Positions 15,223 to 44,966 of a stretch of 64,000 nucleotides of DNA are shown here, piece after piece. A model generated the notes under the pieces. That model saw only the letters and a list, made by a program, of their open reading frames with translations. It was not told where the DNA came from and ran no database searches. Source of the stretch: Asparagopsis taxiformis (Eukaryota > Rhodophyta > Florideophyceae > Bonnemaisoniales > Bonnemaisoniaceae); assembly GCA_030407315.1 (NCBI GenBank), contig JALQPE010000644.1, forward strand, positions 1-64,000, written 5' to 3'. Positions within the stretch are counted from its first letter, which is position 1. Each line of letters begins with the position of its first letter. The position numbers and the translations under genes were made by a program.

Positions 15223-15236
15223 CACAGGATAAGCAA
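15223..15236 (+). repeat. Left terminal inverted repeat of element A
   Basis: CACAGGATAAGCAA, preceded by CT, which is also the first dinucleotide after the right end. Confidence 0.8.
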
Positions 15237-16906
15237 AAATAGAGAATATTCCATGGAAAATGCCGTATTGTACAGTAGAACTAGTCACCATATTTTAGCG
15301 GAACGCCCATCCCCAACGTTTGGATAAGGCCCATCGAAAAAAATGTAAAAAATCATGGGCTGAGACCAGCACGGCGATTTTGTTTTACAGTAGGCAGGAA
15401 CCAAGCAGAACTATGGTGTGGCCGTGAGGTGATGGCTGAACCATGTACGGAAGGACACGTAGGGATGGAAATGAACCACGTCCATATATGAGCAGGACGG
15501 CGGGTTGACTAGAACGGGCCAAGTCACGCAGGCACGGACTGTTGGAATGGAACCAGTACTGTATATGGGTATAGTTAGATATGGGGTGCACCGTGACTGC
15601 GATATGTGGTGGAAGGTGCAGAGCGATTCGTAGAAATAAACTATAAAATATAATGGGCACACCGTGACGGTCCGGTGTCTGAAACCAGGCGTAAGCAGCA
15701 CTCGCTGAATGGACGGTGACCAAAGTATGATTATTGTATTCATTGGAATAATTCCAGAGTAGGTGACTTTTTGCTTATGGGACGTGACCAAGCTGACTTG
15801 TGGAACTGGTCAAACGATAATCTGGAAAGGGACCATTGACTGGGCATGTACGGCCCAAGGCAAAGCGCGGTTAGTTTCCAAACTACAGTACTGTGTAAAG
15901 CCCGGATATATTCTATTATAACACCTGCTCGTGACACTGGTATTATTCCACCGTGGAGCACTGTAATGGGTACGGTTCACTTCCACTGGATGTAGTGGTT
16001 GTACCGTCGGGTTGGCGTGGACCATGTTCACTGGGTAGAGTAGTTGTACCGTCGGGTGGGCGTGGACCATGTCCACTGGGTAGAGTGGTTGTACCGTCGA
16101 GTGGGCGTGGACCATGTCCACTGGGTAGAGTGGTTGCACCGGTGGGCGCTCTGGGTAGAAACTGAAAGGTAGAACGGGCGGCACATCGCACTTTTGCGGA
16201 GAAACTGCAGGACGGATAGGTCTGACTGAAACGATATCTAGGTAGAATGGAAATCGGCATAGGGACAATGAATTAGACTAGGTTGCAGCCAGTAGCGGGT
16301 ACGCAAGATTTACGATATAGTGTAGTGGATATGGAATAGGTAAATGGGCAGCTAACGCCAAAAGTTTAACGACATGAAGATCATCTGTACACTGCACTAC
16401 GGAACTATGAACTATGCCACCATGGCAGATACTAAACGGCAAAACACTAGCTCTACATAAAGTAACTACAAATACATATAGGCATGAAAAGAGAGATGAG
16501 GGGAAGCCAGAAATTTCTGTTGGCACCTGGAAGGAAAAGAATAGATGAATCAATGGTTAGTGCTAGGAATGTAACTTCATCAACGCTAGAAGCATGGTTA
16601 GAAGCGAGAGAACATACCGTTGATAGTGGAGCCAGAGCTTGAGTAAGCGGATTGTAGAGAACCCAGAAACTTCTGCTGGCACATAGATGGAAAGAAGTGG
16701 ATGACACAGTGGTTAGTGCTGGAAACGGTATGCCAAAAGCTCGATTAGAAGTGAGAAAACGTAGTAATGACAGTAGCCCTGGAGAAAGACGAAACAGAAA
16801 GTAGGAAAGGCAGAAAAGTATGTTAGCAGAAGAACAACGAAGAACCGCAGAAAAAGAGAATGGGAGGAATGGCTAAAAGACTAAATGAGCAGGAAAACCT
16901 TATCGT
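15237..16906. other. Left subterminal region of element A, no gene
   Basis: No open frame here has a domain. GTGAC words (for example CACCGTGAC near 15590 and 15660) are scattered and may be transposase sites. A 45-bp tandem array (15991-16146) accounts for a spurious glycine/proline-rich open frame. Two related blocks starting AGAAAYTTCTGYTGGCAC at about 16508 and 16668 form a diverged direct repeat of roughly 160-bp spacing. Confidence 0.5.
15991..16146 (+). repeat. 45-bp tandem repeat, about 3.4 units
   Basis: The unit begins GTTGTACCGTCGGGTGGGCG, continues through GGACCATGTCCACTGGGTAG, and recurs at 45-bp spacing with few changes. The period is a multiple of three, so it creates a repetitive open frame (VVVPSGGRGPCPLGR) that I do not believe is a gene. 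Confidence 0.85.
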
Positions 16907-16971
16907 AGGATGGAGGCGGCGGGGCACAATCACATCCGTAGGGATGTGATTGCACTCCGCCGCCCCATCCT
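16907..16971. repeat. Imperfect palindrome, arms about 30 bp
   Basis: The arms start AGGATGGAGGCGGCGG and are answered by CCGCCGCCCCATCCT; the centre is AATCACATCC gta GGGATGTGATT. It lies in the noncoding stretch downstream of the transposase 3' end. Confidence 0.8.
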
Positions 16972-17190
16972 GCGTAGGTGGTGTGCTCCGAGCGACAGGT
17001 GCTGGCGATGTTGCCCGGCGTGACGCAAGGCTTAAATACTGCTGCAGAGTGAGCCCAGAGGTCGCGTATTTCACTTGCGTAGTGAGAAAGCGCGCGCTTT
17101 TCGTACTGACAAATCAGAAACAAATCATCGATGATCTATGAACACGTCATGGACACGTCATGGACTCGAGATGGACTCGTCATGAATACG

Positions 17191-17228: not shown

Positions 17229-17314
17229 CAGCTGGCGTGCAGCTGCACGCTTGTGAGCGGAAACGTGTATTGCAGGCTGAGGAGCCAATGATGAAAAATT
17301 AGAAAAAATGACTA

Positions 17315-17425
17315 GTTACTGCAGTAAAAAGTGATCTAGGAAGATGCATTTGGTAGATCACTTTTTACTGCAGTAAGAAGTGATCTAGGAAGATGCATTT
17401 GGTAGATCAGTTTTTACTGCAGTAA
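17315..17425. repeat. Doubled CTGCAG-type palindrome downstream of transposase A
   Basis: Two overlapping copies of the CTGCAG-type palindrome share their middle arm. Each copy has arms of the type ACTGCAGTAAAAAGTGATCT around a centre containing ATGCAT. The same family occurs inside the composite palindromes at 22551, 27371, 32018 and 32529. Confidence 0.88.
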
Positions 17426-17698: not shown

Positions 17699-20600
17699 TT
17701 ATGTACTAGACCCTAGAGTATTATGCAGTCCTTGGCGGATATCCATCTTCTCTTGCAAAGATAGAGAAGGAACCACCATCCATAAACGAAGGACCTCCAT
17801 GCGTAATTCCTCCATTCGAAGTGCCTTGCTCCACAGAACATAATGAAGGGCTACAATTGTGGAGGAGACCAACCTTACGAACCCCTGAAGTGAGAGGGAG
17901 AAACCAGGAGCCGGAATCGGTGTTCGGAGCAAACGTAGTGGGGGGACGACTTCTGCTTGATAACTGGAAGAACAATAGCGTGTGGTGGAGACAGGTTTTC
18001 CTGGTGAGATTCGTGTATGCAAACGTTTTCCAGGTGAAGCAATGTTTCCATCAATAGTCAGGTCAAACACGGTGGTAACAGCCCAAAAAGAAGGCGAACA
18101 GGTCTTCTGTAGAATTCTAGAAGACGGGGAAGCTGAGTAGCAAGCTTGTACTACACAGCCAGAAGCTATTTCTTGTGGCTTTGAAAAGTCCCGAGACGCA
18201 GCAGAGGGCGAAGCTGCACAGGCAGGGTGGGCAGAACTGAGACGTGCTCCCTTGCATGGTTTTCCACGAAGCATGACTGCATCCGAATTCTGCCCACAGG
18301 AAAAATCCTGCTGTGGTAATGAAGAGGGAACTCCTGTCCACGAGTAATATGAATATGGAGAAGAGAAGAATGGTAAAGAAGACCTATTCAAATGTTCGAG
18401 AAGAGGTTCTTGACAGAGGTCATGCAGCGTACTAGCCGGGAGGTTCTCCATGGATTTACAGTGCTCCCGTCCGAATAGAACACGAAGGAGAAACCGTTTA
18501 GAACGTTGTCTCTCCACAGATGCTGGAGTAGAATTGGAGAAACTTTTCAAAGCAAGATGGAGGCTTCCTTTCCAATAGTTTCCGAGTGCCGCTAACATAG
18601 CATCCAACTGTCTGTCAGCACCTCCGGAATGCTCTAGACCTCGTTTCATTTGTTGATGTGTTGCTTCGAATGATAGCTCAGCTACCTGGCGAGCGTGTCC
18701 GAGCAGAGGAACAGTGTGTTCAAATGCCTCAATGAGACGGTGCAAGTTTGGCTTATTGTCAAGAATCTTCCTTGCCCGGAATCCAGCAGTCTTGTTTTCC
18801 ATCTCAATGTGGTCATTATCATTCGTTACTATACCTTCTGTCTGCATCTTCCGTTTCTTCGAGACCGCTGTGCTCCGCTGTCTGGTAGGAACAGTCTTGA
18901 GCAGGTCATCCACTAGAGTAGCATATTCTTTCGATAGCTGCTGCAGACGACGGAGACCGTTGTGCGCAGAATTCCCTGTAGCTCTCTGTACTGCCTCAGA
19001 ACCGTCGATATTTTTTCGTGGTAGGAAGTATGTAGCTGCAGATATAGAGGACAGGAGACGAACAAGTTCTAGAGACAGATGGCGTTGCTCTTCAGAAGCC
19101 TGGAGTGACCTTGAACCGCTACCTTCGGATGACCTTGTAGTCTGCGATTGGAATTTCAGAGAAGACCTGAAGCAGTGTTCGGCGACGAGGAGAACTGCAA
19201 ATCTGTCCGAGATTCCCATTGTATGAGTTTCACCTGCGTTGAAGTTATATATCCTGTTCTGATTTGCGAGGCCCAATACACGGAGGGCATCCACCATGAA
19301 CCTGTCGGCCAGCCTTCTCACACCATCATTAGGCAAGCTTGAAAAAGCATTGTCCAGAGCATCCTTTGCCAGTCCATGGAGGAGATGGTCAATTCCAACA
19401 AACGTCGAACGGTATGGGTCCAGAATAGCAGGCACGACAGGGATTCGTAGACCATCGTTTCCGAGTGGTGTCCCGGTTGGAACCAGCCCTTTGGACCTAG
19501 CTTCATGAAGTAGTCTTTCAATGAGATGCAATGGAGTGTCTGTGATATTTTGCACTGTTCTCAAACCCAGATACTTCAAGATGTTTGCAGAACTTTCCGA
19601 TGACTGAACAGCAGCTGTTCGCTCGGATGTGCGAAAGTGTGTATCAGAGCTCGAATGTAAACGGGTGTCGTAGCCAAACTGCGAGTTCTTCCCATATTTC
19701 CCCCCTCTTACAAAGAAACACAAATGGCATGGGCAGTCTGCGTTGTGCCCCATGACATCCAGCACATGAGAACAGGCAGGATAATCCGATACGAAACCAA
19801 TAAAGTCCAGGAAAATTAGACATTCATTGCCGTCTGGATCGACATCACGAAACCCCGACGTACATCCTTGAATAATGTCTCTAGAGATATGTCGAAGGAT
19901 ATGGTTTGTACTAACACCAGGACCTGTGACACCGATAACGCGCACAGCAGAACTGTTCCGGCGACAGTCCAGCGGAAGACCCATTGGGAGCATATAGCAT
20001 CCTCCAGCACTCCCTTTCTTACCAGAGGCTTCATTGAAGTCATCGCAGTATAAAAGAAATGGATAGACGTAGTATGTGGTACCGCAGCTGAGAACCCCAC
20101 GGAGATGTGTAGGATGAAAGGGGCTGGGGCTCGTGCCTGGTTTCAATAACTTGACATTATTGATTGCACGAGTTCCGCCGACAACTTTGTAATGCCCTTC
20201 AGAGTTGACGAGAAAGAGCAGTTTTTGTGATGGGCCTGGCGGTCCGGGAGAGCTGACGACAAGCCCAATGAAGAACTGTATACCACAATTTTGAGTAGGG
20301 TTACACTCAGGACTGGGTGATAAAACTGTCAGGTGATCACCCGGCCGAGCATATTCCCGGAACGACTCTTTCTGAAGGATGAAGGCGGACCCATATGAAT
20401 GCGGGGAGACCGAAAGCCTACTATGAAATGTGGCACCGGAGTTTATCCATGAAGAAGATGTGATAGCTTTGAACGACTCATGGCTGGAAGATAGTGATTC
20501 ATGTTGGAAAAGGGAACTGAGAGTAGGATCTAGAGAAGAGGCGTGCTGCCCTGATGTGACATGCAGTTCCACAATACTACCACCGAAAGCAGAAACGGGA

Positions 20601-21883
20601 AAGCCGTCTTTTACCGCCTCCGCCCTCATCGTGTAGTTTTGTCCTTTTAAGGAGTACTCTCTGAATTTTCCTAGCTTCGACTTGCACACGTTACCATGTA
20701 AACTTAGTATGTCATCCGAGTCGGAAGCATCCAATTGTGTGTTATCACGCCACGCAAGGTCGAATATATGTGGTGCAGTAATGTCTGCTCGTGCATATTC
20801 GCTTGGTGGAACGATAAGTACAGGTGCTGATTGACTAGCTTTGTTTTGTTCGACCTTGCTTCTTCGTAGAATTGCAGAAGAGGCAACACGAGCTGCACTA
20901 CGCTCTGCGTTTACAGGGAAGTATACGGTTTCCGAACGTAACCATGCGTTGAAGAACAGCCACGGTCTTACCTTCCGCATAATTGTCGAATAATGGGGTA
21001 GACTTCGCTGAACGTGTTTGTTCGTGGAACCTTGTCTAGCGAAATCGAACAACACGCGATCTTCCTGAAGGTTTGCTGCGGTGCATTTCGTCGACCCTGT
21101 CAGTTTGGCGACAGCGTACAACGTTGTCCATTCTGTCATGTAATTGCGAGCTTTGTCTGGATTGGACGTGTTCATGATAAAGGGAGAAGAGATTAGGAGC
21201 TTCGCTTCTGCCTCCTCCTGTAGAAACAGGTCGTTGTCATCCGAATCGGAGTCGTTTGTTGCGGTGACGTTCTCATGATGGTCGGAAGCAGCGGGATGGC
21301 ACAGTTTAGGAACTGTCGCAGCAGAAGTGACGGGGTCTCTGCCGGAGGATAGTACAATATCATCGTCGCTAGGAGTAATACAAGCTTTTTGAACTTCTGG
21401 AACAATTGTTCCAGAAGTATACTTGAGTATATTGTTCTGCTGCCCACTATTGGCGTACGTCAAAGGGAGGGTGGTATCCACAGAATTGCTCCCAGGTCTG
21501 AAGATATCCTGTGAAGACGAGGAAGGGAGGACTGGATCTGGATCTGGGGTCTGCGAATTGGTAGCTATGGGAGCATGGGGAGGGTTCGAAGTGCTACCAT
21601 ACTCTGTTGCCGGGCGAGGATGATGGGTTTCTGGTGTATTGCAGTCCATTTCCTGAACGGCAAAAGGATTTGAGACTGTTCTGGATGTCGAGCGTCTAGT
21701 CCGATTGCGGACAGGGGCTACATAGTTGAAACGGAGCCTCGGGCCATTCCTAGACTTTCTCGGTCTAGCCATATCTCGATAACCTGGATTGAGGTAGCAC
21801 CTAGGTGCAAACAGCTGTTTGGAAGGGAGGGAAACGCTGTACGCCTCTATATTATGAGGATACAAATCTCTATAGTCTATCAA
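17699..21883 (-). CDS. Plavaka/CACTA-like transposase A (about 1,394 aa)
   Basis: One uninterrupted reading frame. The ATG at 21772 (MARPRKSRNGPRLRF) is a good alternative start, giving about 1,357 aa. It has a disordered serine/threonine-rich N-terminus of about 230 residues. A catalytic region follows, with an acidic pair in YPFLLYCDDFN (about residue 612), the segment GGCYMLPMGLPLD, then IFLDFIGFVSDYP (about 693) and a zinc-binding-like HNADCPCHLCFF (about 718). A helical segment SFEATHQQMKRGLEH (about 1071) is in the position of the third acid of the DDE triad. This order resembles Tnp2/Plavaka-type transposases, which cut at CACTA-like ends, and matches the CACAG ends of element A. The triad assignment is my inference. 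It is convergent with nothing and divergent from the dioxygenase gene, and palindromes lie at both ends. The frame is intact, so it may be active. A KDZ-type transposase is the main alternative family. Confidence 0.7.
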   Translation of the reverse strand: MIDYRDLYPHNIEAYSVSLPSKQLFAPRCYLNPGYRDMARPRKSRNGPRLRFNYVAPVRNRTRRSTSRTVSNPFAVQEMDCNTPETHHPRPATEYGSTSNPPHAPIATNSQTPDPDPVLPSSSSQDIFRPGSNSVDTTLPLTYANSGQQNNILKYTSGTIVPEVQKACITPSDDDIVLSSGRDPVTSAATVPKLCHPAASDHHENVTATNDSDSDDNDLFLQEEAEAKLLISSPFIMNTSNPDKARNYMTEWTTLYAVAKLTGSTKCTAANLQEDRVLFDFARQGSTNKHVQRSLPHYSTIMRKVRPWLFFNAWLRSETVYFPVNAERSAARVASSAILRRSKVEQNKASQSAPVLIVPPSEYARADITAPHIFDLAWRDNTQLDASDSDDILSLHGNVCKSKLGKFREYSLKGQNYTMRAEAVKDGFPVSAFGGSIVELHVTSGQHASSLDPTLSSLFQHESLSSSHESFKAITSSSWINSGATFHSRLSVSPHSYGSAFILQKESFREYARPGDHLTVLSPSPECNPTQNCGIQFFIGLVVSSPGPPGPSQKLLFLVNSEGHYKVVGGTRAINNVKLLKPGTSPSPFHPTHLRGVLSCGTTYYVYPFLLYCDDFNEASGKKGSAGGCYMLPMGLPLDCRRNSSAVRVIGVTGPGVSTNHILRHISRDIIQGCTSGFRDVDPDGNECLIFLDFIGFVSDYPACSHVLDVMGHNADCPCHLCFFVRGGKYGKNSQFGYDTRLHSSSDTHFRTSERTAAVQSSESSANILKYLGLRTVQNITDTPLHLIERLLHEARSKGLVPTGTPLGNDGLRIPVVPAILDPYRSTFVGIDHLLHGLAKDALDNAFSSLPNDGVRRLADRFMVDALRVLGLANQNRIYNFNAGETHTMGISDRFAVLLVAEHCFRSSLKFQSQTTRSSEGSGSRSLQASEEQRHLSLELVRLLSSISAATYFLPRKNIDGSEAVQRATGNSAHNGLRRLQQLSKEYATLVDDLLKTVPTRQRSTAVSKKRKMQTEGIVTNDNDHIEMENKTAGFRARKILDNKPNLHRLIEAFEHTVPLLGHARQVAELSFEATHQQMKRGLEHSGGADRQLDAMLAALGNYWKGSLHLALKSFSNSTPASVERQRSKRFLLRVLFGREHCKSMENLPASTLHDLCQEPLLEHLNRSSLPFFSSPYSYYSWTGVPSSLPQQDFSCGQNSDAVMLRGKPCKGARLSSAHPACAASPSAASRDFSKPQEIASGCVVQACYSASPSSRILQKTCSPSFWAVTTVFDLTIDGNIASPGKRLHTRISPGKPVSTTRYCSSSYQAEVVPPLRLLRTPIPAPGFSLSLQGFVRLVSSTIVALHYVLWSKALRMEELRMEVLRLWMVVPSLSLQEKMDIRQGLHNTLGSST

Positions 21884-22139: not shown

Positions 22140-22218
22140 AGCTTCGCAACTGCAGACAGAGCACTCAGTGCAAACACTATACTCCATGGAGTGGCACGGA
22201 GAAGTTCCAGACTAGTCT

Positions 22219-22259
22219 AAAATTTGGTAATTTTTGAGCCCAAAAAATTACCAAATTTT
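22219..22259. repeat. Simple GGTAATTTTT palindrome
   Basis: A palindrome of about 41 bp with arms AAAATTTGGTAATTTTT and its complement around GAGCCC. This is the unit form without the CTGCAG insert. It lies between transposase A and the inverted repeat of the dioxygenase unit. Confidence 0.9.
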
Positions 22260-22526
22260 GTGCCCCACTCGTAGTGACCGTATGGCTCGTACACCGCCCT
22301 GCTTTGTGCTCCCGTCCATATTCCATGAAACACTCACCACCATCGGTCAGCACCACGTGGGCAGCACCTTCTATAGTTCCTTTCAAATACGTTTCTGGAC
22401 TGCTGGTGCACAACAGTCTCAATGTACTACGACGAACACCGTCGGAATATTCAGAAACATACATCATTAAAGCATCGAATGCGACGACTAGACGAATGTG
22501 GAGCAGGAGCGGTTGTCCAAATCTGG
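22260..22526 (+). repeat. Diverged third copy of the dioxygenase-flanking repeat
   Basis: This stretch starts GTGCCCCACTCGTAGTGACC and is a diverged direct copy of about 22654-23072. It shares blocks such as AGCACCACGTGGGCAGCACC. Its divergence contrasts with the near identity of the two inverted copies around the dioxygenase gene. Confidence 0.75.
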
Positions 22527-23112
22527 TGCAGACGGTCGCCAGACTAGTCTAAAATTTGGTAGGGCACTGCAGTAAAACTGATCTAGCAAAGTGCACTTTG
22601 GTAGATCAGTTTTTACTGCAGTAATTTTTGAGCCCAAAAAATTACCAAATTTTATGCCCCACTCGTAGTGACCGTATGGCTCGTACTCCGTCCTACTTTG
22701 TACCAGCGACCTTATGCCATGGGACACTCACCACCACGAGTAAGCACCACGTGGGCAGCACCTTCTATAGTTCGGTGCAATTATGTTTATCGACTATTGG
22801 TGCACAATTGTCTGGATGCATCACGATGACTAGATGTTCAAGATTGTATGAGGAGAGAAGTAGACGGACATAGATGCACGTCATGGTAATACCGGTTCGG
22901 TTTTGAACAGAGCTGCAATGCGCCGTCAATGTTCGTCAACGACCATCCAGCGAAGAAGCGTAGCATTTGGAATGTTTAGAAACATCAGTAAAGCATGGAA
23001 TGTATGAACTTGACGTAGCCTGGGGCAGGAGCGGTTGTCCAAATCTGGAACAGGTGGGCGCCGGACGGGTCTAAAATTTGGTAATTTTTTGGGCTCAAAA
23101 ATTACCAAATTT
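22527..23112 (+). repeat. Left inverted repeat flanking the ParB/2OG gene
   Basis: About 0.58 kb, matched in reverse at 27371-27974. I saw no mismatch in the roughly 420-bp core by eye. The repeat is bounded on each side by a GGTAATTTTT palindrome. The outer palindrome (22551-22653) carries the CTGCAG hairpin insert and the inner one (23073-23112) does not. Confidence 0.88.
22551..22653. repeat. Composite palindrome (CTGCAG hairpin inside GGTAATTTTT palindrome)
   Basis: The left outer arm is shortened (AAAATTTGGTAGGGC), then comes ACTGCAGTAAAACTGATC, a GTGCAC centre, the returning arm GATCAGTTTTTACTGCAGT, and the complete outer arm ending CCAAATTTT. The palindrome at 27903-27942 is the equivalent site in the opposite repeat and lacks the insert. 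Confidence 0.9.
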
Positions 23113-23568
23113 CACGCCCCTTCTTGTACTCTCTTCACGACTGTTCATTGGGTACTGATTGATTTGAACGCAACCGGTGAGTCTTTTGGCGCGTGGGCGC
23201 GAATTTATTCGCACCCCTTCAGTTAACCTTCCAAACGTTACGTCTACACGATTTCCTGTCACTCTCCTCTGCTACTCATCTACTACTCCTTGTAGTACTC
23301 CAGCACCTCAAAGGCAATTCAGATCGTGCATCTCCCTGCTTCAGCCCAACTCCCCCTGCTTTCCAAGCTTCGCTCTTCGCATCTCTCTCTGCTTCTCCCG
23401 CTTTGCATCCATCTGTCTCCCCACAGTGACAGTGTCCCATCCCTCTCTCTCTCTTCAATCCTTGCTCTCCCGTGCCCTCTCTTTCTCTTCACTCCCTGCC
23501 CTTTTCGTGCCCACTTCACCTCTATACACCGTTCAGAGTTCAAGAGCTTGTTTATCCCACCCACAAAC

Positions 23569-26500
23569 ATGTTTCATCGTCAACGCTCTCGTCTCGCAGC
23601 TGCATCTTCCCGCGCTCCAGCTCGGGAGCTGACAGTCCCCGCGATGCCCCGGGCTGGTAGCACGCTTGCGAACTACGAGTTCCGGCAGATGACACTTCCG
23701 ATTGCGGACATTCATGTCACGGAAGAAACATCGCGCGAGGTTGATGAGTCGCATGTAGATGTGTTGTTTCAGAAGATGGTTCTTGAAGGCTTTCAGACCT
23801 CTTCCGTGGGCTCCGTGACTGTCGTTGGTCTAGCCCACGAGTCCGACGAAACACGCTTCTACATCGCGGATGGTCTCCATCGTCGTGGCGCTCTTGTCCG
23901 AGCCAAAGCGGAAGGAGTTGAACGTCTGGCTTCTATTGTGGACAGCGTTCCTGTTCAGGAAGCGTTCAGGCCAGATGGACAAGCCATGACGATGGAAGAC
24001 GTGCTCTACCTGAGTCAGCGGCTGAACGAACTGGTGCACACGGTTTTACCGACCACCATCCGCGACCGTATTCATGCTATCATCAGCATATACAACTGCA
24101 ACTTGAAGTACGCGAAGGAAGGGGAAAGGAAACTCTCCAGTATGACAGCTTCGCAGCTGTGCAACTGGTTCTTCCAGCGTCACTTCAGTGGCATACTCAG
24201 GAAGAGTACGGTGACGTCTATCGTCAATGTGGCTCTGAACATGAGACGTTCACCACGCACGTACGAGGCGTACAAGATGGCCTCTGGTAGGAAGGAAAAT
24301 GAGGTTGGAATCAGCCTTCTAGTGCTGAAGGACACCGCGTTCACAAAGGCTGAGGACCGTGCCAGTGAGCTGATGGTTAGGTGCATTCACTACCGCTCTG
24401 TGAAATTGCTCCAGTCCTTTGGTCGCATCCCAGGTCTCCAGCTCAGGGTGTATCTCAATTACATCAGAGATTTCTACCTGGTAATCCGTGAAGTCGCACC
24501 CAAGGTTGGGATGACTACGGACGAGCTGACAGACCTGGAGGACCTCGAACCGGATGAAACGGACATGATCCCGACCTGGAAATCCGTGTTCAAGCGCATG
24601 GTTCAATATGAAGAACCTGTGCCGAAACAGGAGAAGAACCACGAGCGTCGCCGAGAAGATTTCCGAACCGTCATCCTGCAACGTTTCAACATTGCACCGG
24701 ATCGTGAGACTCCGCCCCCTCCTCCCGGAGCATCTGGCGATGCAGTGCTTGCCACTGCGGCCAGTCAAGGCGCAAAAGATGTGGGGAAGGAGAGCGAGAA
24801 AGCGGCAGAGAGCGTTCCTGCTCCTGCCCCTGTGGCATCAGCCACTCCTCCGAAGTCACCATCACAGGTGACTCGGCAGGCTCGCTCTCCGACCCAATTC
24901 GGGGAGAATATCATGGAACCTCTCCCCGTTCCCCTTCCCTCACAACCCCTTCCTGAGGACGAAATCAATCCGATGGACATTTCTCCTCCTGACTCCCAAG
25001 CCAAGCCGGACTCAACAGCCCGCGCCCCTTCCCCCTCGAAGCCCAACTCTCCTCCCCCTTCCCCCTCCAAACCCAACTCTCCCCCCCCTCCCCCTTCCCC
25101 CTCACAACCCGACTCACCCCCCCGCTCCCCCATGGCCGTCTCCCCACCCACGTCTGCTCCTGTTCCCGACTCTGCTATCGCCACGGAACAGCAGAACCCC
25201 GAAACCTCGGTTGAAGCTTCTCAACCGCAGGGGGGTGGTGGGGGGACAGTAGTTTCACGCTCTGTGCGCATTCCGCCCGATGAAACTACGCCACGCCCCT
25301 TTCCCTGCTCGCTTGGATCACACTGTCGCTTCCCCGGCTATGCCGCTGTGCACAAATGCACAGCGTGCAACATTCAGCCAGTACACAACCTGTGCGACTA
25401 TCCTCGAGTATATCACCTCATCCCCATCAAGTACCTCAACAACGGTGAGCGAGACATGGTGTTCGTCTGCTCCCGTGAGTGCTACGATGGCCGTCAACCG
25501 GATGACCCCCCTTCTTGGACCCCTCCTGCAGGGGTCACGTTACAAGAAGCGTGGGAAGGTGATGCGTACAATCCTTTCGAAAAGGACGCGTCCTCTACCG
25601 AGTCTGCTGAAGAAAAGGATAAGCAGACCGGTGAGGCTCCGCGGAGTACGATGGGAGGGAAGGCGCCCATATCCCGGGAACCAGCCAAGAAAACTGCCTC
25701 TGGAACACCGCGGCGGGGAGAAAAGAGGAGGAGAGAGCCGACCACTCCTCCTCCGACTCGGATGACTCGGTCCAAGACCAGAAGTGCCGCTATCGCAGAG
25801 CAACTCATCGCTCTCGGTAGCCCGTCTTCTCCCCCTGTCTCCCTTCCGCTTCCTGCACAGCCACCCTCATCTGGCGAAAAGGAGCGTGAAGGTGAGATAG
25901 AAGACGGCGAAACCCCTACAAAGACGAAGGTGACTTCCAAGGGGTTTCGGGTACACAGGTATGAGGACGAGCAGCCACCGCCACCTTCCTTTCTCACGGA
26001 GCAGACCACGCTTGCCCAAGCTGCTACGTTCGTGCGTTCAATTTCGGGTCTGCTCCATCCTGAACACCGCTCTGGGTTCATCATGACGAGTGGGGAGGTG
26101 GAGGAGATCAGGGAGGATATCAACTCCGCGGCTGGTGGTACATCCGAGGAGAGGATTGTTTATTGGGAGCGGGCAAGGGCTAGTATTGATTTCGATGGAT
26201 ACATCGTCCTCGAAGACATACTAGGAGCTTCCGATGTACGGTCTGCAATCCACGAACTGCTCTCTGGGTTTGCCCAAAAGTTCGATGACAATGTGGAAGG
26301 GGCGTGGGGCACGATTCTGAACTCCGGTTCAGCTGCCCAGGATGCCCGGGGTGGCGCGTCTCGCCAGCGGTACATGACCCCCCGCTCGGCTGTCATTGAA
26401 GACCTCGACGGGGAGCAATCCATGTCGCTGGCTCATGACAAGGTTTCCGTGGATGTCATCCTCGCAATTATAGCGGAAATGTTGCACTTGGAGGATTCCG

Positions 26501-27902: not shown

Positions 27903-27942
27903 AAAATTTGGTAATTTTTGTGCCCAAAAATTACCAAATTTT
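27903..27942. repeat. Simple GGTAATTTTT palindrome at outer edge of right inverted repeat
   Basis: AAAATTTGGTAATTTTT and its complement around GTGCCC, with no CTGCAG insert. Confidence 0.9.
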
Positions 27943-35449: not shown

Positions 35450-35504
35450 TCACTCCTTCCTCTGAATAAGAGTCGTGCTCGACTCGAGACTGAAGGGGAG
35501 GATA

Positions 35505-35963: not shown

Positions 35964-36052
35964 GGTGGAGAGGGGATATGGATGGGAAGGGGATGTCCAA
36001 ACGAGGTTGTGGACTGAAAGGAATTTATAGAGCTGAAAGGGAGACCGGGAGT

Positions 36053-39000
36053 CTAATTCTGATGATATTTGTCAAGAAGTTCCTGACAATTTTTAAGGTT
36101 TTCTATGGAAAGCCAGGAATTTTCGTGATCTGGATAACCTTTCCATTTCACGAGATATTGGAGTTTCCTGTGTCTTTTTCTGTGGTGAAGAATTCTCTCA
36201 ACTTCATATTCGTCAGAGTTTGTTGAAAGTTTGATCGGTGGCGGTGGTACTGGTTTTCGCTCGAATGTGTCCTCTACGTAAGGTTTGAGGAGGCTAGAGT
36301 GAAATGCATTGTGGATTTTGCGATCGATCATTGGTTGGGGAAGGTTCAATCGAAAAGTAACTTCATTGATCTTCTCAGTGATTTCGAATGGTCCACAAAA
36401 CTTTGGGTGAAGCTTTCTTGTACCCGATCCATCTTCAAGGGTTAGGTTTGCTGTGGACAGCATGACCTTGTCATTGACCTTGAATGGAGTCGGTAAACGC
36501 TTCCTATTGGCTTGCTTTGCCATTGATTCATTTGCTTTCTTTATGTTTTCGATGGCTTGTTTGGTAGCTTTTCCTATGGTGGATATGAATTTTTCTGCAG
36601 TCGGGTTTTCTGTTTCTAAGGTTTCTATGGGAAGGGTCCTAGGGTGTTGCCCATATGTGAGGAAGAAGGGTGTGAAACTAGTGGCAGCATGTATTGAAGA
36701 GTTGTAAGCTACTTCAAAGTGGGCTAAGTATTCGTCCCAGTTGGTTTTGTTGTAGTTAGCGAAGGCTCTAATCATTTCCTCAATCTTTCGATTAAGTATC
36801 TCTGTTTGTCCATCCGTTTGTGGATGGTATGCGGACGATGGTGATATCTTGGTTTTCAAGGTATGGAAAAGAGACTTCCAGAATTTGCTCATAAATACTG
36901 GATCGCGGTCACTAATGATTACTGAGGGGAGTCCATGGTGTCGATAAATGTTCTCGAAGAATAACTTTGCTGTTTCAACAGCGTTTGGGTCTCTTTCATA
37001 CGGGATGATTCGGAGTAGCTTAGATAATCGATCAACTACAACGAACATTCCGGTGTTGCCTTTCCTGGTTTTGGGTAGAGGTGTCACAAAGTCCATGGTG
37101 ATGTGTGTCCACTTCCCCGAAGGGGGTTCTAATGGTTGAAGTAGTCCGAATGGTTTATGGTTTGGAGCCTTAGTTCTTTGGCATGTATCACATGAAGTGA
37201 CATATTCTCTAATGGTTTGTTTCATTTTCTTCCAGTAATATTTTGTAGCTATTCTGTGGCAAGTTTTCTTTATTCCAAGGTGACCAGATTGTGGGGTATC
37301 ATGATGATCATGTAGTAATTGAAGTCGATAGGTCCCTTTCGGTACACATAATCGTTCTTTGTAGTACAGAAGGTTGTTTTCTTTTCGGAAGGAGTTCTTC
37401 GGTGATTTGTATACTTCTTGGAACTCAGGATCCTTGGTATAATCTTCTTCTTTTATCTTTGCGTTGCCGTCTGATGCAAAGTACGTAGCATTGGTTTCAA
37501 ACTGTGATGTTATTGATATTGCTTTCGTCAGAAGAGAGTGGTCTCTAGGGGCGGTTGGTTCTTTGTTCAGAAATTGTCTGGAGAGTGCGTCAGCTACTTT
37601 GTTTGTTTTCCCTTTTATTGGAATTATTTTGAAGTCGAACGAGACAATTGATTCAAGCCATCTTACTTGTCTTTGGGATAGTTGCTTTTGGGTTTCCAAA
37701 TATCTGAGGGGATAGTGATCAGTGTAAACGGTAAATGGTCTACCATGGAGATATGCTCTCCATGTTCGAAGTGTATCGATGATGGCCAGGAGCTCTCTTT
37801 CATGAGCTGCATACTTTTGTTCGGCTGCATTGAGAGTTCTGGAGTAGAATGCAACAGGTCGGTATCTATTTGTGTCCTTTTGTTCCAGGACAGCACCAAT
37901 TGCAAATTGAGAAGCATCGGTTGTGACAACTATGTCCTTTTCTGGGTGGAAGGGCATTAGTACTGGGGTTCGAGTCATCACTGTTTTCAGTGTGGTAAAG
38001 GATTGTTCGGCGGAGGGGTTCCACGTGAATGGAGCATTTTTCGTGAGTTCTGTGAGTGGTTTTGCTATGGCTGAGCAGTTTCCGATGAATCTGCGATAAT
38101 AATTGACTAGGCCCAGGAAAGACTGGACGTCTCGTTTGTTCCTTGGCCTTGGCCATTCTTTGATGGTTTTGATCTTGGTTTCTTCAACTGATATTCCTCC
38201 TGGTGTGAGAACATGTCCTAAGTATTCTATCTCTTGTACTGCGAAAGAACACTTTGACATTTTTGCGTACAACTGATTCTTGCGGAGTCTCTGCAGAACT
38301 AGCTCAATGTGGTGAAGATGATCGGTAAATGAGGAGCTATAAATGAGTATATCATCCAGATATACTATAACAAAGTGATCTAGGTAATCTCTGAAAAGAT
38401 CATTCATCAACGTCATGAACGTTGCAGGAGCATTGGATAATCCGAAGGGAAGCACAAGGAACTCGAAGTGTCCGTACCGGGTTCGGAACGCGGTTAGTGG
38501 GATAGAGTCCTTTTCTAAGCGTACTTGATGGTATCCGGATCTTAGGTCGATTTTACTGAAGTATTTGGCGTCCTTCAGCTGGTCAAAGATATCATCAATT
38601 CTAGGGAGCGGGTAGCTGTTCTTCACAGTGAGGCGATTGAGGGCTCGATAATCGATACACATACGTAGTGCACCGTCTTTTTTACTCACAAATAGAACTG
38701 GAGCACCCCAAGGGCTGCAACTTGGCTGGATAAATCCTGCTTCCAGGAGTTCATCGAGTTGTTTCTTAAGCTCTCTGAGTTCAGGTGGGGACATCCGATA
38801 CAGACCTCTTTTCTGTGGAATACTTTCGGGAACTAGGTCTATTCGGAAGTCAATTTTTCTTTGGGGAGGTAATCCTTTGGGCAACGTTTCTGGGAAAACG
38901 TCATTGTACTTTCCTAGAATTTGTTCGACATGTTTAGGAAGTTTTTGTTCGGAGGTCTCTGGTTTATTTGGGTTCAATACGACTGCAAACAAAGGGAAAT

Positions 39001-39613
39001 TTTCTTCGTAGTCTCGGGTCATTGCGCTTAGTGAAATACTTTCGCAAAGATGAAATTCATTTGCGTAGATGGTAAATTTTTTGTTTCGGTGGGAGAATGA
39101 GATTTGGTTCGAGTGGTTATCAATGGTGGCAAAATGGTTGGAGTGCCAATCCTTGCCGAGGATGGCATCATGATTTAACGGGCAGACAGCGAATGACAAC
39201 TGCTCTGTGTACCCTTGAATCTGTAGACTGATAGTAGACTTGGTTTGTTCTAAGGTTTGTGTATTCTTGTTGGCCATGGTGGCTAGGTGATTTGTGTCCT
39301 TGATCGGAATTTTGTTCGATAAGCAAAACGATCTGTTCACGTAACTGATCTCGGAACCAGGGTCAAACATGAGTTTTGCTCTAACCCCATTTATTTTTCC
39401 AGACGACACTAGTAATCCTATACCAGCTCGTTTGAATGGATCTGGAGTTGTTTCAAAGGGAACTAGGGGAGGGCTTCTTACCATAGTAGGAATTTCTATG
39501 GGGTTCTGGACGTCTTGGGACGGAGATTCGGCTAGTTCCGTTTGCCTTTTGGGCAGTTTTTGGCAATATGCCCTGGTTGGCGACAGCGGAGGCAAAGCCC
39601 TTTCTTCATGCAT
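36053..39613 (-). CDS. pol: gypsy Pol: protease, RT, RNase H, integrase, chromodomain
   Basis: An intact frame of 1,186 codons counted from the first ATG; true translation probably enters by -1 frameshift from gag. Protease: [12 protein letters not shown], about residue 83, with DPG instead of the usual D-S/T-G. Reverse transcriptase: [15 protein letters not shown] and YLDDILIYS (about 418). RNase [15 protein letters not shown] (about 563). Integrase zinc domain: [14 protein letters not shown] then CDTCQR (about 765). Integrase core with D, D and E in [21 protein letters not shown] and [14 protein letters not shown] (about 830-945). Chromodomain: [18 protein letters not shown] and [14 protein letters not shown] at the C-terminus (about 1140-1183). 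Chromodomains direct integration to marked chromatin (known for chromoviruses), notable given the SET-bearing host element. Confidence 0.95.
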
Positions 39614-40401
39614 TGTTCTCTTTCTTCTTTGGTTAACTTTTTGATTTGAATGTTTCCAAGTTCCATGGGGACGGGCCTTGAGGAATTTCCTTCTGGTTTA
39701 CGGCCATAGTCCTTATTTTTTGAAATACCCCCGTTGGGTCCAAGGCGGCGGTGAGCAGCTTCAACGCGTTCAGCGTCACGCATTGCCTCGGCAAGGTCAC
39801 GATAATCTTTGGTACAAAGTTCTTTCCAGATATATTGCTTTAAACCCCTGGTATATCGGTCAATTTGTTCTGCCATACTTATAGTTGGGATGTCAAGGAG
39901 AATTCTTTGGAAATCATCGTTGAATGATGATACGTCGCGTACCTGTCTCCAGCGAGCCAATTTATCGCGAGCTACCTTTTCTTTGTTAAGCGTTTCAAAA
40001 CGAGAGATAATAGCCTTTCTTAAGCAGTTCCATGTTTTTATTTCGCTTCCATCATCGGTTTTTTGATAAACAATCCACCACTCATGAGCAGCTCCAGATA
40101 AATAGCTAACAGCTAGCTGGAGTGAGTCGTCGTCGGTAGCGTTGGCCAGGTAGTTGTCCATGTGCGTAGCCCAGCTTGTGATCGATCCTCTGCCAGAGAA
40201 CTTTTCAGGTTGGTGTTTCTTTGGTTTAGGATTGTCTGATGTTTTAATACTCTGGAGCTCTTCCCTTATACGATCATACGATGCAGCGGCATCGTTTAGG
40301 GAGTTCTGCTGGTTATTGATCTGGGAGTTGGCTGCCTGGAGTTGAGTTTGTAGATCCTGGACAACCTGGGCAAGGTTTTCAATGGTGATGGGATTACTCA
40401 T
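39532..40401 (-). CDS. gag: gypsy Gag with CCHC zinc knuckle (289 aa)
   Basis: It starts [17 protein letters not shown], a heptad-rich helix. A retrotransposon Gag core follows ([46 protein letters not shown]), and a CCHC knuckle, [14 protein letters not shown], near the end. It forms the particle and binds RNA. The frame ends at 39532, overlapping pol by at least 82 nt. A heptamer CCCAAAA in the correct phase (Gag codons TGC CCA AAA) lies at 39547-39553. The start is 46 nt after the ORF1 stop. Confidence 0.92.
39547..39553 (-). promoter_or_regulatory. Candidate -1 ribosomal frameshift site CCCAAAA
   Basis: It matches X XXY YYZ in the Gag reading phase, five codons before the Gag stop and inside the Gag/Pol overlap. 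Pol lies in the -1 frame relative to Gag. I have not established a downstream stem or pseudoknot. Confidence 0.55.
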
Positions 40402-40447
40402 TTTTTTGTTTTTGAGGAAGAGAGAGAGTGTGTGTGTTTACTACGTT

Positions 40448-41365
40448 CTAATGGTTCACTCCAAGTCCTACGCGCTCACGATGCTTAGCACTCTTGATGT
40501 GACGAGTATAGTCTTCGATAGAGACGAAGGAACGATCACACGGGCGACAGTTTAATTCGACTTGATGGTTTCGAACTCGGCGCTTGTGCTTTTCGGAATC
40601 GATGTGGGCTAGAAATTGAGCCCTGGTCTTGGCTGATTTTCGGCAAAGTGTGCAGTCGAAACTTCTTGTGGGAGTCTTTGGTTTAGGGTTCCTCTTGGCT
40701 TCTTTGTATGTTGCGGTTCGGAGAAGATGCTGCGAGGAACGGTCGTCGATTGGCAACAAGGTGCGCTGCGGAGGGATAGTGGTCGAAGCAGAGGCGCGAT
40801 GTGAGCTAGGAGTTGCTCTGGGGGCCGGTATGTTTTGTCGGGAGACCGTCTTTCCGAGAATACGATGAGTATTGCCGACCTTCTTGGGCGTGTTCGGAGC
40901 GTCCGACTTGGGTGCCACCGTGAATCGAGGGAAAGCAGCCCGGGGCGGTTGAGCACGAGGGGCGGGTCGAAGACGTGGGGTAGGAAGAATGGTCTTCTTC
41001 GTGATCGGAGGGCGAATGGCGAGGCGAAGGGTCACTCTCGGCACGAAGGCGGGGAGAACCGCTTTAGGCTTGGCGATAGCAGGAGGTAAAGGGCGGAAGT
41101 CGTCGTCAAGGTCGATGGCGGTCGGCGGCGGAGCGGGCGGAGTATCGACGGTGGGGGTCTGTGGGGTGGTGTCGGCTCTAAGGGCGACGATCCCAAACGG
41201 CGGAGTCTGCGGGGGCCGAGTGAGGGGGGAACTCGGGAATGCGGCACTATCGTCGGAGCGGTATTCCGACGGGGAGTCTGGGGTTCTGTGGGAAAAAGAT
41301 CGTGGTCCGGCCACTGTCCAACAGGAAAAATCCTCAAGATGGTTAGTCAAGTCGTAGTCAGTCAC
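40448..41365 (-). CDS. ORF1 upstream of gag: Pro-rich protein with two U1-type C2H2 zinc fingers (305 aa)
   Basis: It starts MTDYDLTNHLEDFSCW, 90 nt after the 5' LTR, and ends 46 nt before gag. The first about 225 residues are proline/serine/arginine-rich and look disordered. The C-terminus has two fingers with the C-x2-C-x12-H-x5-H spacing typical of U1-type / RNA-binding zinc fingers: FDCTLCRKSAKTRAQFLAH then EKH (about 230-255), and LNCRPCDRSFVSIEDYTRH then AKH (about 268-293). Gypsy elements normally start with gag, so an extra ORF here is unusual. Possible roles are RNA packaging, chromatin targeting or countering silencing; these are guesses. It sits in a frame different from gag, so gag needs reinitiation, splicing or an IRES. 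Confidence 0.75.
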   Translation of the reverse strand: MTDYDLTNHLEDFSCWTVAGPRSFSHRTPDSPSEYRSDDSAAFPSSPLTRPPQTPPFGIVALRADTTPQTPTVDTPPAPPPTAIDLDDDFRPLPPAIAKPKAVLPAFVPRVTLRLAIRPPITKKTILPTPRLRPAPRAQPPRAAFPRFTVAPKSDAPNTPKKVGNTHRILGKTVSRQNIPAPRATPSSHRASASTTIPPQRTLLPIDDRSSQHLLRTATYKEAKRNPKPKTPTRSFDCTLCRKSAKTRAQFLAHIDSEKHKRRVRNHQVELNCRPCDRSFVSIEDYTRHIKSAKHRERVGLGVNH

Positions 41366-41455
41366 ACAACAGCGTAGACTCGATAGGAGAACTAGACTGC
41401 TGTGTGAAGCCAGAGATGGAGAAGTGGCGGGAACTTACTTGCGATGCTACCAAGC

Positions 41456-42216
41456 TGTGGGGGTTAAGGCACAACTTGGGAGAAGGTGTTCCGGTCGAAG
41501 GTACCTCCGAATCCCTGAGGTGGGGAGCGGAGGGTAGTTTATATAGACTAGGAGGTAGCTCTAGGAGGGGTAAAATGAAGGGTAACTACGAGGAGCTACG
41601 AGGAGTAGGCATCGGGAGATCAACCAATAGGAGAGGAGAATGGGAGATATTGTTGGTGGTGGCGGATCTGGAAACGGTCATAAGGAGAGTGTGACAGGGA
41701 GGGCCACGTGTAAGAGTCCAGCAATGTTCGGCAGGAACCCCTGACACGTGGAAACCTGGAGCCGGGCGCGACCGGGCCCCGCAGTGCGGCGTACAGTGTA
41801 AGCTTACATTTCTTACATGTAAGCTTACAGTTGAAATTTCATTGAAAAAACGAGGTTTCCGTCAGTTACAGTTGTAAGTTACCTGTCATACGGGCGTATG
41901 TGTGTAAGTAACCCTGTAAGTGGGGCGAAAGTGGCTGAAAAAGCCATGTAATCTTGTAAGTAACCGTGTCAGTCACATGACAGGTGTTGTAAGTCTATCA
42001 TAACATGTAAGTAGCCTGCTCAAGTGTCTCCTAGGTGGTGTAAGGTATGTGGAAAGCTGTAAGTAGCCTCGTAGGAGTGGTTACTGTAAGCTTCCCTTGT
42101 AGTTGGGAGCTTTGGTCTCTGTGGAATGGTACTATCTTATTGGTTGGTCGGGGTATGGTGTTATAAGAACAGGAATCTAGTGTTTACCATGAGGTCTAGA
42201 GGGCTGATCCCTGACA
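41456..42216 (-). repeat. 5' LTR of the gypsy element
   Basis: 761 bp, matching 34689-35449 with no difference noticed by eye. It is followed on the minus strand by the primer-binding site TTGGTAGCATCGC. Confidence 0.95.
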
Positions 42217-42283
42217 CTCTGCTCCGCAATGTATGCTTCAGAATAATTAAACTAGTTCTTCCATGTTCATCTCACTACCTGTA

Positions 42284-43978
42284 TCATTTTATGTACTCCT
42301 CTGCCCTTTTCTCTGACACACTATACCCCACCACATCATTGACCACATCTTCCGATATTAACTTGCCTATTCTACATGGTTCTTCCACACCACGGAATAT
42401 GACATACGGCATATGCACTCTCATTGTTCCCCACAACATGTCACCAGCCCTTCCTCTTTTCCTTTGCGTCGTAAGTTCCCATTCAATGCGGAAACATTTC
42501 TTTCTTTCGCTTCTCCATCCTTCTAGACCCCCGTCACCATCGAACCCCCCGTGCACGCCACATATCGAGGTACATTCCTGCAGCTCCATTCCGTTCACAT
42601 ATTCACCTTGGACTACAGCACTACCGTTGCGAGCCAGACACCATACGTTCGATTTAGATCCGGCAATGCAGAACGAGCTACTGCCAATTGCAACAGATGT
42701 CGACTGTGCTTCCATCGTTTCCGAGCACAATATCGTACCAAACAACCGCAGAGCACATGGCCTCGCTGTTCCGTTCATGTCACCACACTCTTCATTCTCC
42801 TCCCCTTCCGAGTTGCTTATGTTACGCCTATGAACCAGAGACTCAGTTCGCCATCTGTGCCCCAATCCTAGCAGATCCGATAGTGTGGAAAAACTGGAAC
42901 ACGTAATGTTCACAGCTTCTCCGCCATTTCCAGCCACTGCCGCGTGAAGCCCTGGGTACACTTTGTAATACCCCCCTCGATAGGTTTCTGCTGTTCCCTT
43001 TAGCATTTCCCGGAATAGCTCAGTGCTCAATGAGATTGGAATCTGGACAGGTCCGCTAATAGCCGTTCCACTCGTGCATGCACCGTCAATCTCACCATGT
43101 GGGTAGCCACCCCCTGGGGTTGACAAAGTGCATCGATTAACCTGTTCCACAACTTTCTCTACCGCACGCTGCAAGAGCATTAACAAAATCTTACCAGCCG
43201 ATACTGTTGATGCACAATTTAGAACTCTTTCGTTCCAACCAAGCCGAATCTCGCTAGCATTTCCAGAAAGCATTATATTTTCTAGTGTTCTCAGCCTTGT
43301 CTCCATACCACTGTATGTTTTGAAGTCAAGTCCTGATTCCACTTTTGGCTTCTTCCTCTGCGGTGATATCGCTTCAGATTCTCTATCTGATTGGTCATGA
43401 CATTCTACTCTCTCCGCTTCGTAATCCACAGCCTCTCCATTGCTCGTTCGCCACGGTGTCGGGGGCTGGCCCCCCGACATCAACTTATTTCCGAGCAGAA
43501 ACTTTACGTTTTCGTAGGCGACACAAGGATAATTCATTTCAGGAATAGCATCGTATAACAATCTGCCTTCTGCCACTGCCATTTCATTATGACTCGGCTT
43601 CACAGCGTTCGAATGCCGCCACGTAGTGACTTCCAAGACTGAAATCTCCTTTTCCTCCCTCGTCAACCTCACGATTGTATCATCCACATCCTTTCCATTC
43701 TGCTCCACCACACCAGGCGTGTACATTCCATCTCCTCTGTCTACGTCGATGCGGTCTCCCACTGACGGCTTACCACTGCAGATAGGATACTGCTCAGGAA
43801 GTTTCATTTCCACAACCGTAGCCTTCCACCATATTGCGTCATCGCCAACTTGGAACCATACGTCTATTTCCGTTCCGACACATGGGAGTGCATCTACGGC
43901 AGCTGCCCGCTCACGCTCACGACCAGCTTTCGCTTTTTCGCTCTGTCGCCTAATTCGCAATGATTCACGCCTCGTCAT
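42284..43978 (-). CDS. Tudor/SH3-like protein of element A (564 aa)
   Basis: Intact frame starting MTRRESLRIRRQSEKAKAG, a basic N-terminus. Residues about 35-125 contain two SH3/Tudor-like strands-and-turns units. The first is GTEIDVWFQVGDDAIWWKAT, followed by VVEM. The second is SVGDRIDVDRGDGMYTPGVV, ending in EVTTWR. Such folds bind methylated lysine or arginine, or DNA, in chromatin proteins. An NLS-like PQRKKPKVE is near 212, then a short heptad stretch METRLRTLENIML. The rest (about 290-564) is not recognised. It is encoded convergently with the coiled-coil gene, and the gypsy element lies between them. A reader of the marks written by the methyltransferase-SET protein is an attractive but unproven role. 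Confidence 0.5.
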   Translation of the reverse strand: MTRRESLRIRRQSEKAKAGRERERAAAVDALPCVGTEIDVWFQVGDDAIWWKATVVEMKLPEQYPICSGKPSVGDRIDVDRGDGMYTPGVVEQNGKDVDDTIVRLTREEKEISVLEVTTWRHSNAVKPSHNEMAVAEGRLLYDAIPEMNYPCVAYENVKFLLGNKLMSGGQPPTPWRTSNGEAVDYEAERVECHDQSDRESEAISPQRKKPKVESGLDFKTYSGMETRLRTLENIMLSGNASEIRLGWNERVLNCASTVSAGKILLMLLQRAVEKVVEQVNRCTLSTPGGGYPHGEIDGACTSGTAISGPVQIPISLSTELFREMLKGTAETYRGGYYKVYPGLHAAVAGNGGEAVNITCSSFSTLSDLLGLGHRWRTESLVHRRNISNSEGEENEECGDMNGTARPCALRLFGTILCSETMEAQSTSVAIGSSSFCIAGSKSNVWCLARNGSAVVQGEYVNGMELQECTSICGVHGGFDGDGGLEGWRSERKKCFRIEWELTTQRKRGRAGDMLWGTMRVHMPYVIFRGVEEPCRIGKLISEDVVNDVVGYSVSEKRAEEYIK

Positions 43979-44952
43979 AGTTCCTCCACGAAATAAAGAT
44001 ACTACAACGCACTATCTGCAATTTTGTTTAGGACAAGTCTTCGTCGACTTCTTCACTAGATACTACTTCACCCATGTCTGTAACGTCCAATTTTTCATTT
44101 TTATCGTATGATACGAATTCACTACCTTGTTCCCTACTGCCGCACAAGTTTTCAAATCCACTAATACTGCGTTTAAGATACTAGTAACGCTTAAAGCCAG
44201 GGCGGAACTCACTATTCAGGTCAATCTTGTGTATGCGGGAGTGACTTTATTACAAAATTTTGCGACTTCGACAGTAACTATGCCGTAGTATCTGTGCTAA
44301 AAATCAACATAGATGGTGCCATTCTTTACTAAGTAATACTACAGAAACTAAACTCAAGTACAATTATCTACTCTTTCGACCGTACCCTACCTATGGTAGA
44401 ACAATGACCATAACGAGATTAGCTAGTTCACGTCATACACTATGTATCTCGCCTCTTTCATATGATTCTGCATGGACGTCCAAAACGTGACGTCATCGAA
44501 GCGTATGGCGCGTTGGAACAGTCAGTACCACTCCATCCCTCTACCATCACTACATTGCTACGACTACCACCAGTACCTCAGACCGGCGTGACCATCAATG
44601 TTCATGGTTCGAGTCCAACATGGTACTGTCATACATATGGTTCCCTCGTCTCGTGATTCCAGCAAGTAAATTCTAAAAATAATGGAATATGCCACCTCCG
44701 GTCACCGTCATGACCAACGCGACGTGTCTTTGTCCTTTCCAATGTTATTTTTCCGTACAGTAGTGGAAAATTCCACCATGTCACGGTGCTTATACCCACT
44801 CCCACGGCGCAGTTTCATTCCACTCTATTCTTTACGGTATTTCCACTACTTATCTATGGCACGGCGCCGGTAATTTCTGCGATTTTTTATGGTTTGCCAT
44901 TCCACTAATTTCTAATGGTCCAGACCATAAAATTTACTGGTTTTTCAAAAAA
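43979..44952. other. Right subterminal region of element A, no gene
   Basis: AT-rich, no convincing open frame. Several CCGTCATGACC / TCACGG words and repeats of TTCCACTA and GGAATGGCA type occur near 44690-44930, plausible transposase-binding sites comparable with the GTGAC words at the left end. Confidence 0.45.
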
Positions 44953-44966
44953 TTGCTTTTCCTGTG
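44953..44966 (-). repeat. Right terminal inverted repeat of element A
   Basis: Reading inward it is CACAGGAAAAGCAA, against CACAGGATAAGCAA at the left end. One mismatch in 14. Confidence 0.8.

Follow-up and report, generated by a model that had tools for sequence, protein, structure and literature searches.

A multi-copy class II transposon of the red alga Asparagopsis taxiformis carries a predicted DNA methyltransferase-SET fusion and a ParB-like protein

The DNA analysed here (the window) is a stretch of 64,000 nucleotides from Asparagopsis taxiformis (assembly GCA_030407315.1, contig JALQPE010000644.1, positions 1 to 64,000 of the forward strand), and it contains a class II transposon, element A (15223..44966), that encodes a transposase, a ParB-like protein and a predicted DNA methyltransferase fused to a SET domain. 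The same kind of fusion is found on a second transposon in the window, element B. This combination, in which the SET-fused DNA methyltransferase is accompanied by a separately encoded ParB-like protein and recurs on two transposons, is apparently new, as it was not found in the literature searched (mostly titles, abstracts and passages). The fusion would bring together, in a single protein of a many-copy parasite, two marks that separate machineries normally deposit. If active, it would provide a natural test of whether eukaryotic N6-methyladenine (6mA) or N4-methylcytosine (4mC) is a real, directed chromatin mark, because the same genome offers copies that have the gene and copies that lack it for comparison.

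The fusion gene of element A (28321..31824, + strand) matched Pfam N6_N4_Mtase (8e-14) and SET (1.5e-05; 25.8 bits against a cut-off of 22.4), and its methyltransferase part also matched a PHROG family (1.3e-25). Beta-class amino-methyltransferases have a DPPY motif followed by the FxGxxx S-adenosylmethionine (SAM) motif. We assigned the enzyme to this class because DPPY (residue 673) precedes its SAM motif (FAGTFS, 863); the predicted product is N6-methyladenine or N4-methylcytosine. The SET part retained GDGLFA (1017), KINDP (1100), ANVSF (1120) and YGHDY (1161), and the Asn and Tyr motifs among these are presumably catalytic, by analogy. Among solved structures in the Protein Data Bank (PDB), the methyltransferase part matched DpnA (5e-09) and, more weakly, MboIIA (0.0016) and CcrM (0.0052), while the SET part matched KMT5A (1.5e-04) and, more weakly, SETD7 (0.007). 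A relative at 65% identity (P0004) kept both domains (Pfam methyltransferase 1.9e-10, SET 7.4e-05). The assignment of both domains from sequence is solid, and the DPPY methyltransferase-SET fusion proposed in the original prediction, which had been made from the letters of the DNA alone, was confirmed by two Pfam domains over cut-off and intact motifs.

Our genome listings for the left end, the right end and the methyltransferase-SET gene (40 rows each) hold the best-scored candidates only, with haplotype duplicates included; since only the best candidates per query were listed, gaps in them are not proof of absence. Full-length fusion genes that were 99–100% identical and had no stops made up 22 of the 40 rows. 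The window copy has an 11-residue insertion that is missing from P0003-P0005 and from 29 other copies compared. Among 30 copies, the ratio of nonsynonymous to synonymous variation (pN/pS) was 0.60, and it was 0.41, 0.31 and 0.15 for variants present in at least two, three and four copies, respectively, all of these being small numbers. A viral origin of the fusion was considered and set aside, albeit on weak grounds, as no relative was confirmed among 146 pattern matches in one viral-contig scan of limited reach.

Element A is a class II transposon by its abrupt inverted-repeat boundaries, its constant target duplication and the unbroken sites found in copia relatives. It starts with CACAGG at 15223 and finishes with CCTGTG at 44966, and comparison of the two ends with other copies gave a 14-bp terminal inverted repeat, CACAGGATAAGCAA (left, 15223..15236, + strand; right, 44953..44966, - strand), bordered on each side by a 2-bp CT duplication (15221..15222 and 44967..44968). 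The right repeat has one mismatch in the window copy and in C1581, and is perfect in five other copies of one set and in five of eight further copies; the right-end pattern was not found in the stretches examined of C2341 and C2382. The left boundary was readable at 29 of the 30 loci listed, of which three lay at a contig edge without flank and one had 2 nt of flank. The remaining 25 loci showed 19 distinct flanking sequences, with the repeated ones being haplotypes or duplicated contigs (e.g. C644, C2235 and C2236), and the break fell exactly at CACAGG in 23 of them (L051 and L060 had end variants). Both flanks were available in five copies, and the 2-bp duplication matched in four: CT in the window and C2066, CA in C1931 and GT in C2263. 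In the fifth, C1726, which has only 2 nt of left flank, it did not match.

The sequence interrupted by element A belongs to a copia retrotransposon, whose frames on either side were read by eye as protease, integrase, reverse transcriptase and RNase H. A 200-nt query, consisting of the two flanks joined without element A, gave 44 rows in all, many at 68–78% identity, and crossed the junction in six other places at 92–93% (four over 1–200 and two over 7–200). The window, C2235 and C2236 matched this query up to the junction only, which means that the same locus was filled in the haplotypes seen. The CACAGG...CCTGTG ends with CT flanks and the interrupted copia reverse transcriptase, both claimed in the original prediction, therefore held, and its proposed search for empty sites succeeded in part: six copia relatives are unbroken across the insertion point, and an element-free allele of this locus was not found. 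Contigs C2235, C2236 and C1999 carried the same flanks as the window site (15223/44966). More than one haplotype thus seems to be present in the assembly, and copy counts consequently overstate the number of independent insertions. Separately, possible copia long terminal repeats (LTRs) at 11836-12507 and 62333-63003 lie inverted, about 50 kb apart, on the outer sides of elements A and B; a direct second copy of them was absent from the 18 direct-repeat families of the window, which suggests a rearranged copia.

Both ends, the transposase, the ParB-like gene, the methyltransferase-SET gene and a gene for a 564-residue protein (42287..43978, - strand) were collinear in four contigs (C644, C2078, C134 and C1726) and in a fifth, C2263, whose left end was read separately; further copies with CACAGG ends and these genes, which the original prediction had proposed to look for, were thus found. 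Collinear copies measured 21.5 to 22.2 kb. The interval in the window is longer through a nested gypsy LTR retrotransposon (34689..42216, - strand; 7,528 nt) that is not part of element A, with identical 761-nt LTRs (34689-35449 and 41456-42216) and a CTCTG target duplication. This gypsy is a separate, later insertion, and a young one because its LTRs are identical; because it accounts for 7.5 kb of the interval, element A is about 22.2 kb long, not 29.7 kb. Extra length between the methyltransferase gene and the right end was likewise seen in C2066 and C2909.

Gene order was tallied over the 40 methyltransferase rows, with other features scored within preset distance windows, so that rearranged copies fall outside the tally. 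Relative to the methyltransferase gene, orientation was the same for the left end in 9/9 listed rows, the transposase in 10/10, the ParB-like gene in 13/13, the right end in 18/18 and the 564-residue gene in 19/21. The distance from the methyltransferase start to the right end was 9079–9145 nt in 15 of 18 rows and longer in the other three, including the window. The extent of element A was drawn from the 19 distinct left flanks, the right ends and these constant distances between parts across many contigs. Judged by its many near-identical copies, element A appears to be a recently active, cut-and-paste transposon.

A diverged subfamily (78–79% identical in the methyltransferase, 72–74% in the ParB-like protein and 81–82% in the 564-residue protein) had another gene order; on C1824, for example, its 564-residue, methyltransferase and ParB-like genes all lie on one strand. 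Because this subfamily keeps the genes in another order, the cargo persists through rearrangement. C384 and C98 each combine a diverged ParB-like gene with a left end that resembles element A's. We also observed that these left ends are near-identical to element A's while the nearby ParB-like genes, at 73–74%, are oppositely oriented, which suggests end swapping or mosaic elements. Five other copies (on C2382, C2494, C1581 and, twice, C215) carry the methyltransferase-SET gene, the 564-residue gene and the right end, and are possibly non-autonomous derivatives that retained the writer.

The transposase gene of element A (17702..21883, - strand) was present at no fewer than 33 loci (35 rows) in the genome, and has relatives in P0001 (99%) and P0002 (66%). 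By the CMCT criteria given in passages of PMC12730594 (5'-CA..TG-3' termini and a duplication of 2–5 bp), the CA..TG termini and 2-bp duplication of element A agree with that group. The same source gives CAC..GTG termini and a 3-bp duplication for fungal EnSpm/CACTA families of Puccinia; CACAGG..CCTGTG fits these termini, whereas the duplication is 2 bp. Motifs read by eye were CPCHLC (717-722), HLLH within DHLLHGLAKD, and FEATHQQMK near residue 1073, with an HLLH spacing of 2 as opposed to the 3–4 of the CMCT signature (C(2)C and H(3-4)H between the second D and the last E). No Pfam profile matched the protein, that of Plavaka included, and local similarity to the transposase of element B was not significant (score 54 against 48 ± 6 in 200 shuffles, with a maximum of 67). 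Plavaka termini are given as TGT..ACA (PlavakaA) or CATCA..TGATG (PlavakaB) in the parts of PMC12730594 consulted, and Plavaka membership was rejected because neither the termini of element A nor the profile fits. The "CACTA/Plavaka-like" label of the original prediction thus kept its first half: by ends and motifs that partly fit, the enzyme is probably CMCT/CACTA-like, and termini, profile and pairwise tests speak against Plavaka. The final ~108 codons of the window copy are read in a different frame from 24 of the 33 listed loci, where the match ends at residue 1286-1287; the window frame is shared by relatives at 85–86% (C510 and C1844), and that of the majority by P0001 and P0002.

Element B (45970..61839) encodes a methyltransferase-SET fusion (49928..53122, + strand; Pfam 4.6e-15 and 1.1e-06) and a Plavaka transposase (56147..59188, - strand; Pfam Plavaka 1.6e-24). 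Its left end was backed by 38 other places, as 38 of the 40 rows listed for a left-end query started between 45955 and 45970 and ran inward (the window and C1999 matched throughout, reflecting a shared locus), and its right end is inferred from an inverted repeat. At least 43 rows of the element B fusion were found in the genome, all full-length and open. The fusions of elements A and B were 26% identical over 874 residues (E 3e-74), and apart from them no protein of element A matched one of element B at E < 0.3. Because element B carries the same fusion beside a Plavaka enzyme, the methyltransferase-SET module occurs with two dissimilar transposases, which suggests, from sequence comparison, an exchangeable anti-silencing cassette. 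Element B also encodes, at 53784-56066, a protein whose coiled-coil-like matches stay below cut-off, and has short tandem repeats near its right end (61206-61411 and 61536-61750, with units of 24 and 43 nt).

The ParB-like gene of element A (23569..27102, + strand) had been read in the original prediction as a ParB/zinc/2-oxoglutarate (2OG)-dioxygenase fusion. A ParB-like domain is supported by a PHROG ParB-like partition family (3.6e-05 here and 7.8e-05 in P0006, a 55% relative) and is followed by a Cys-His cluster and a putative 2OG dioxygenase part, for which the evidence is motifs only: HxD at 1012, H1095 and R1122, invariant between the window protein and P0006 (two sequences only). The ParB-like region had no Pfam match and no significant PDB match (best E 0.68), the best hit of the dioxygenase piece was a TPR-like chain (E 0.072, not significant), and a search of solved structures with the protein's alignment gave no significant match. 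Twelve of the 49 listed rows of this gene were full-length at ≥97% identity and without stops. Palindromic repeats occupy the intergenic gaps of element A: repeats with the palindrome TTACTGCAGTAA downstream of the transposase (17308..17425), and clusters between the transposase and ParB-like genes (22207..23120), ahead of the methyltransferase-SET gene (27360..27965) and after it (31978..32689). The 25-nt repeat core occurred 378 times in the genome at ≤1 mismatch and its backwards-read control 0 times; of the first 100 places listed, 83 had a known element A feature at a distance of 8 kb or less, and none fell inside an open reading frame (ORF) match. These repeats are candidates for the sites that the ParB-like protein would bind.

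The cargo of element A may act on the element's own chromatin, marking it to escape silencing, a reading whose chances we put at about even and whose activities are predicted from sequence. The ParB-like protein would recognise element A DNA, possibly at the palindromic repeats; the fusion would write N6-methyladenine (or N4-methylcytosine) and a histone-lysine methyl mark there; the possible 2OG domain could edit host marks; and the net effect would be permissive chromatin that withstands silencing by the host and maintains transposase expression. In a more specific version, which we regard as rather doubtful, the ParB-like protein would bind the palindrome clusters as ParB binds parS and recruit a single enzyme that joins a histone-lysine mark to DNA methylation of bacterial type, with this dual writer being a module exchanged between unrelated transposon superfamilies of one genome; the resulting private epigenome would be a type of chromatin outside the host's own repertoire. 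VANDAL elements, which belong to a plant MULE lineage and are not known to carry a fused methyltransferase or SET, offer a partial parallel. Their VANC proteins provide element-encoded, sequence-specific anti-silencing (PMC10398659), much as proposed for element A. 6mA has likewise been connected with permissive chromatin (PMC12695648, seen in part).

Several results weigh against self-marking or against the integrity of the cargo on which it depends. Structure models of the methyltransferase-SET part and of the 2OG part were poor (mean pLDDT 36 and 31), and the 2OG part matched no Pfam or PHROG family over cut-off. Two overlapping ORFs at 32947..34624 (+ strand; possibly one spliced gene), labelled a coiled-coil nuclear-localisation protein in the original prediction, matched nothing over cut-off in profile searches, and the 564-residue protein, labelled Tudor/SH3-like, had no match in Pfam or PHROG; neither label was confirmed. 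The description of the cargo as a "complete" DNA/histone-modification kit was accordingly too strong, as the proposed eraser and the proposed reader both lack a family match. The palindromic repeats could instead represent miniature elements nested there, and no known element A feature lay near 17 of the 100 listed places. As for the copies, the preset windows contained no further feature for 11 of the 40 methyltransferase rows; the five copies on C2382, C2494, C215 (two) and C1581 had room on the contig, yet no transposase or ParB-like row among the matches listed; and on C2026 the only transposase row among those matches lay 22–26 kb upstream. When each end was looked for in one predicted stretch of the eight further copies, C2263 alone gave both, and they were not recovered in the other seven. 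Finally, transitions at CpG were seen at 24 of 390 sites against 50 of 1410 other C/G sites, because of which escape from host cytosine methylation is not supported; CpG depletion was mild (observed/expected 0.84 in element A without the gypsy versus 0.89 in the window).

The main rivals of self-marking are transposition timing and self-repression, each of which we consider unlikely. In bacteria, Dam methylation times the transposition of Tn10/IS10. Element A might similarly methylate its own ends, with the transposase preferring one methylation state, and a methyltransferase of the bacterial beta class (DpnA 5e-09) does travel with the transposase; this account leaves the SET fusion unexplained. 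Alternatively, the SET and methyltransferase domains might write a silencing mark through which the cargo represses the element and limits copy-number damage. The structural matches of the SET part, to KMT5A (H4K20) and more weakly to SETD7 (H3K4), leave the sign of the mark open, whereas the many near-identical copies point to recent proliferation. It is less probable still that the genes are passengers: transposons are known to capture genes, which could ride along by chance without benefit to the element, and several copies have lost parts, but frames are open in many copies, relatives at 55–73% occur in other records, and the fusion has also been retained beside another transposase that is unlike that of element A. 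The case that the original prediction named as its refutation, host genes at fixed loci beside a small element to which the CACAGG ends belong, could draw on partial copies and on listings of best candidates only, but is ruled out, to within a very slight residual chance, by the constant spacing of the genes between these ends at insertion sites with distinct flanks and by the insertion site being unbroken in copia relatives.

Self-marking by element A would extend an idea that is already known from the sources seen, namely transposons carrying ParB plus methyltransferase, TET or SET, and retrotransposons carrying methyltransferases. The closest parallel is Sola1-1_Ec32 of Ectocarpus, a 21.5-kb DNA transposon among algal transposons with ParB-methyltransferase proteins (passages of PMC12477816): it is also giant, combines a ParB-like domain with an N4C/N6A-type methyltransferase and was proposed to target its own DNA for binding and modification, but it has a Sola transposase, joins ParB and methyltransferase in one protein, and no SET or 2OG domain is mentioned in those passages. 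Many fungal DNA transposons (Kyakuja, Zisupton, EnSpm, Plavaka and others) carry TET/JBP genes according to the text seen of PMC12730594; they too are class II, partly of the same CMCT clade, and show a DNA-modification enzyme moving between unrelated transposon lineages, although TET/JBP is an oxidising 5-methylcytosine (5mC) eraser and not an amino-methyltransferase-SET writer. In that text "ParB" is absent and "SET domain" occurs once, and the Phytophthora HarbingerS and MuDR elements that it names are DNA transposons with a SET histone methyltransferase gene, but of other superfamilies and with no fused DNA methyltransferase mentioned there. Dinoflagellate and charophyte retrotransposons encode cytosine methyltransferases (PMC5890265, in part) thought able to act on the element itself; unlike element A, they are class I and their enzymes are of the C5 type. 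No transposon-borne methyltransferase-SET fusion was found described in the literature searched, nor was one seen in the portions available of a giant-transposon review (PMC6431247) and a fungal DNA methylation review (PMC13297926). The earlier claim that no described class II element has this set stands for the fusion within the literature searched, and partial precedents have been published.

The 564-residue protein, lastly, gave 77 listed rows in the genome, which fall into three identity classes, the lowest reaching 68%. Of these, 59 had no stop, 52 of them being full-length, and such open frames suggest that the gene is under constraint.

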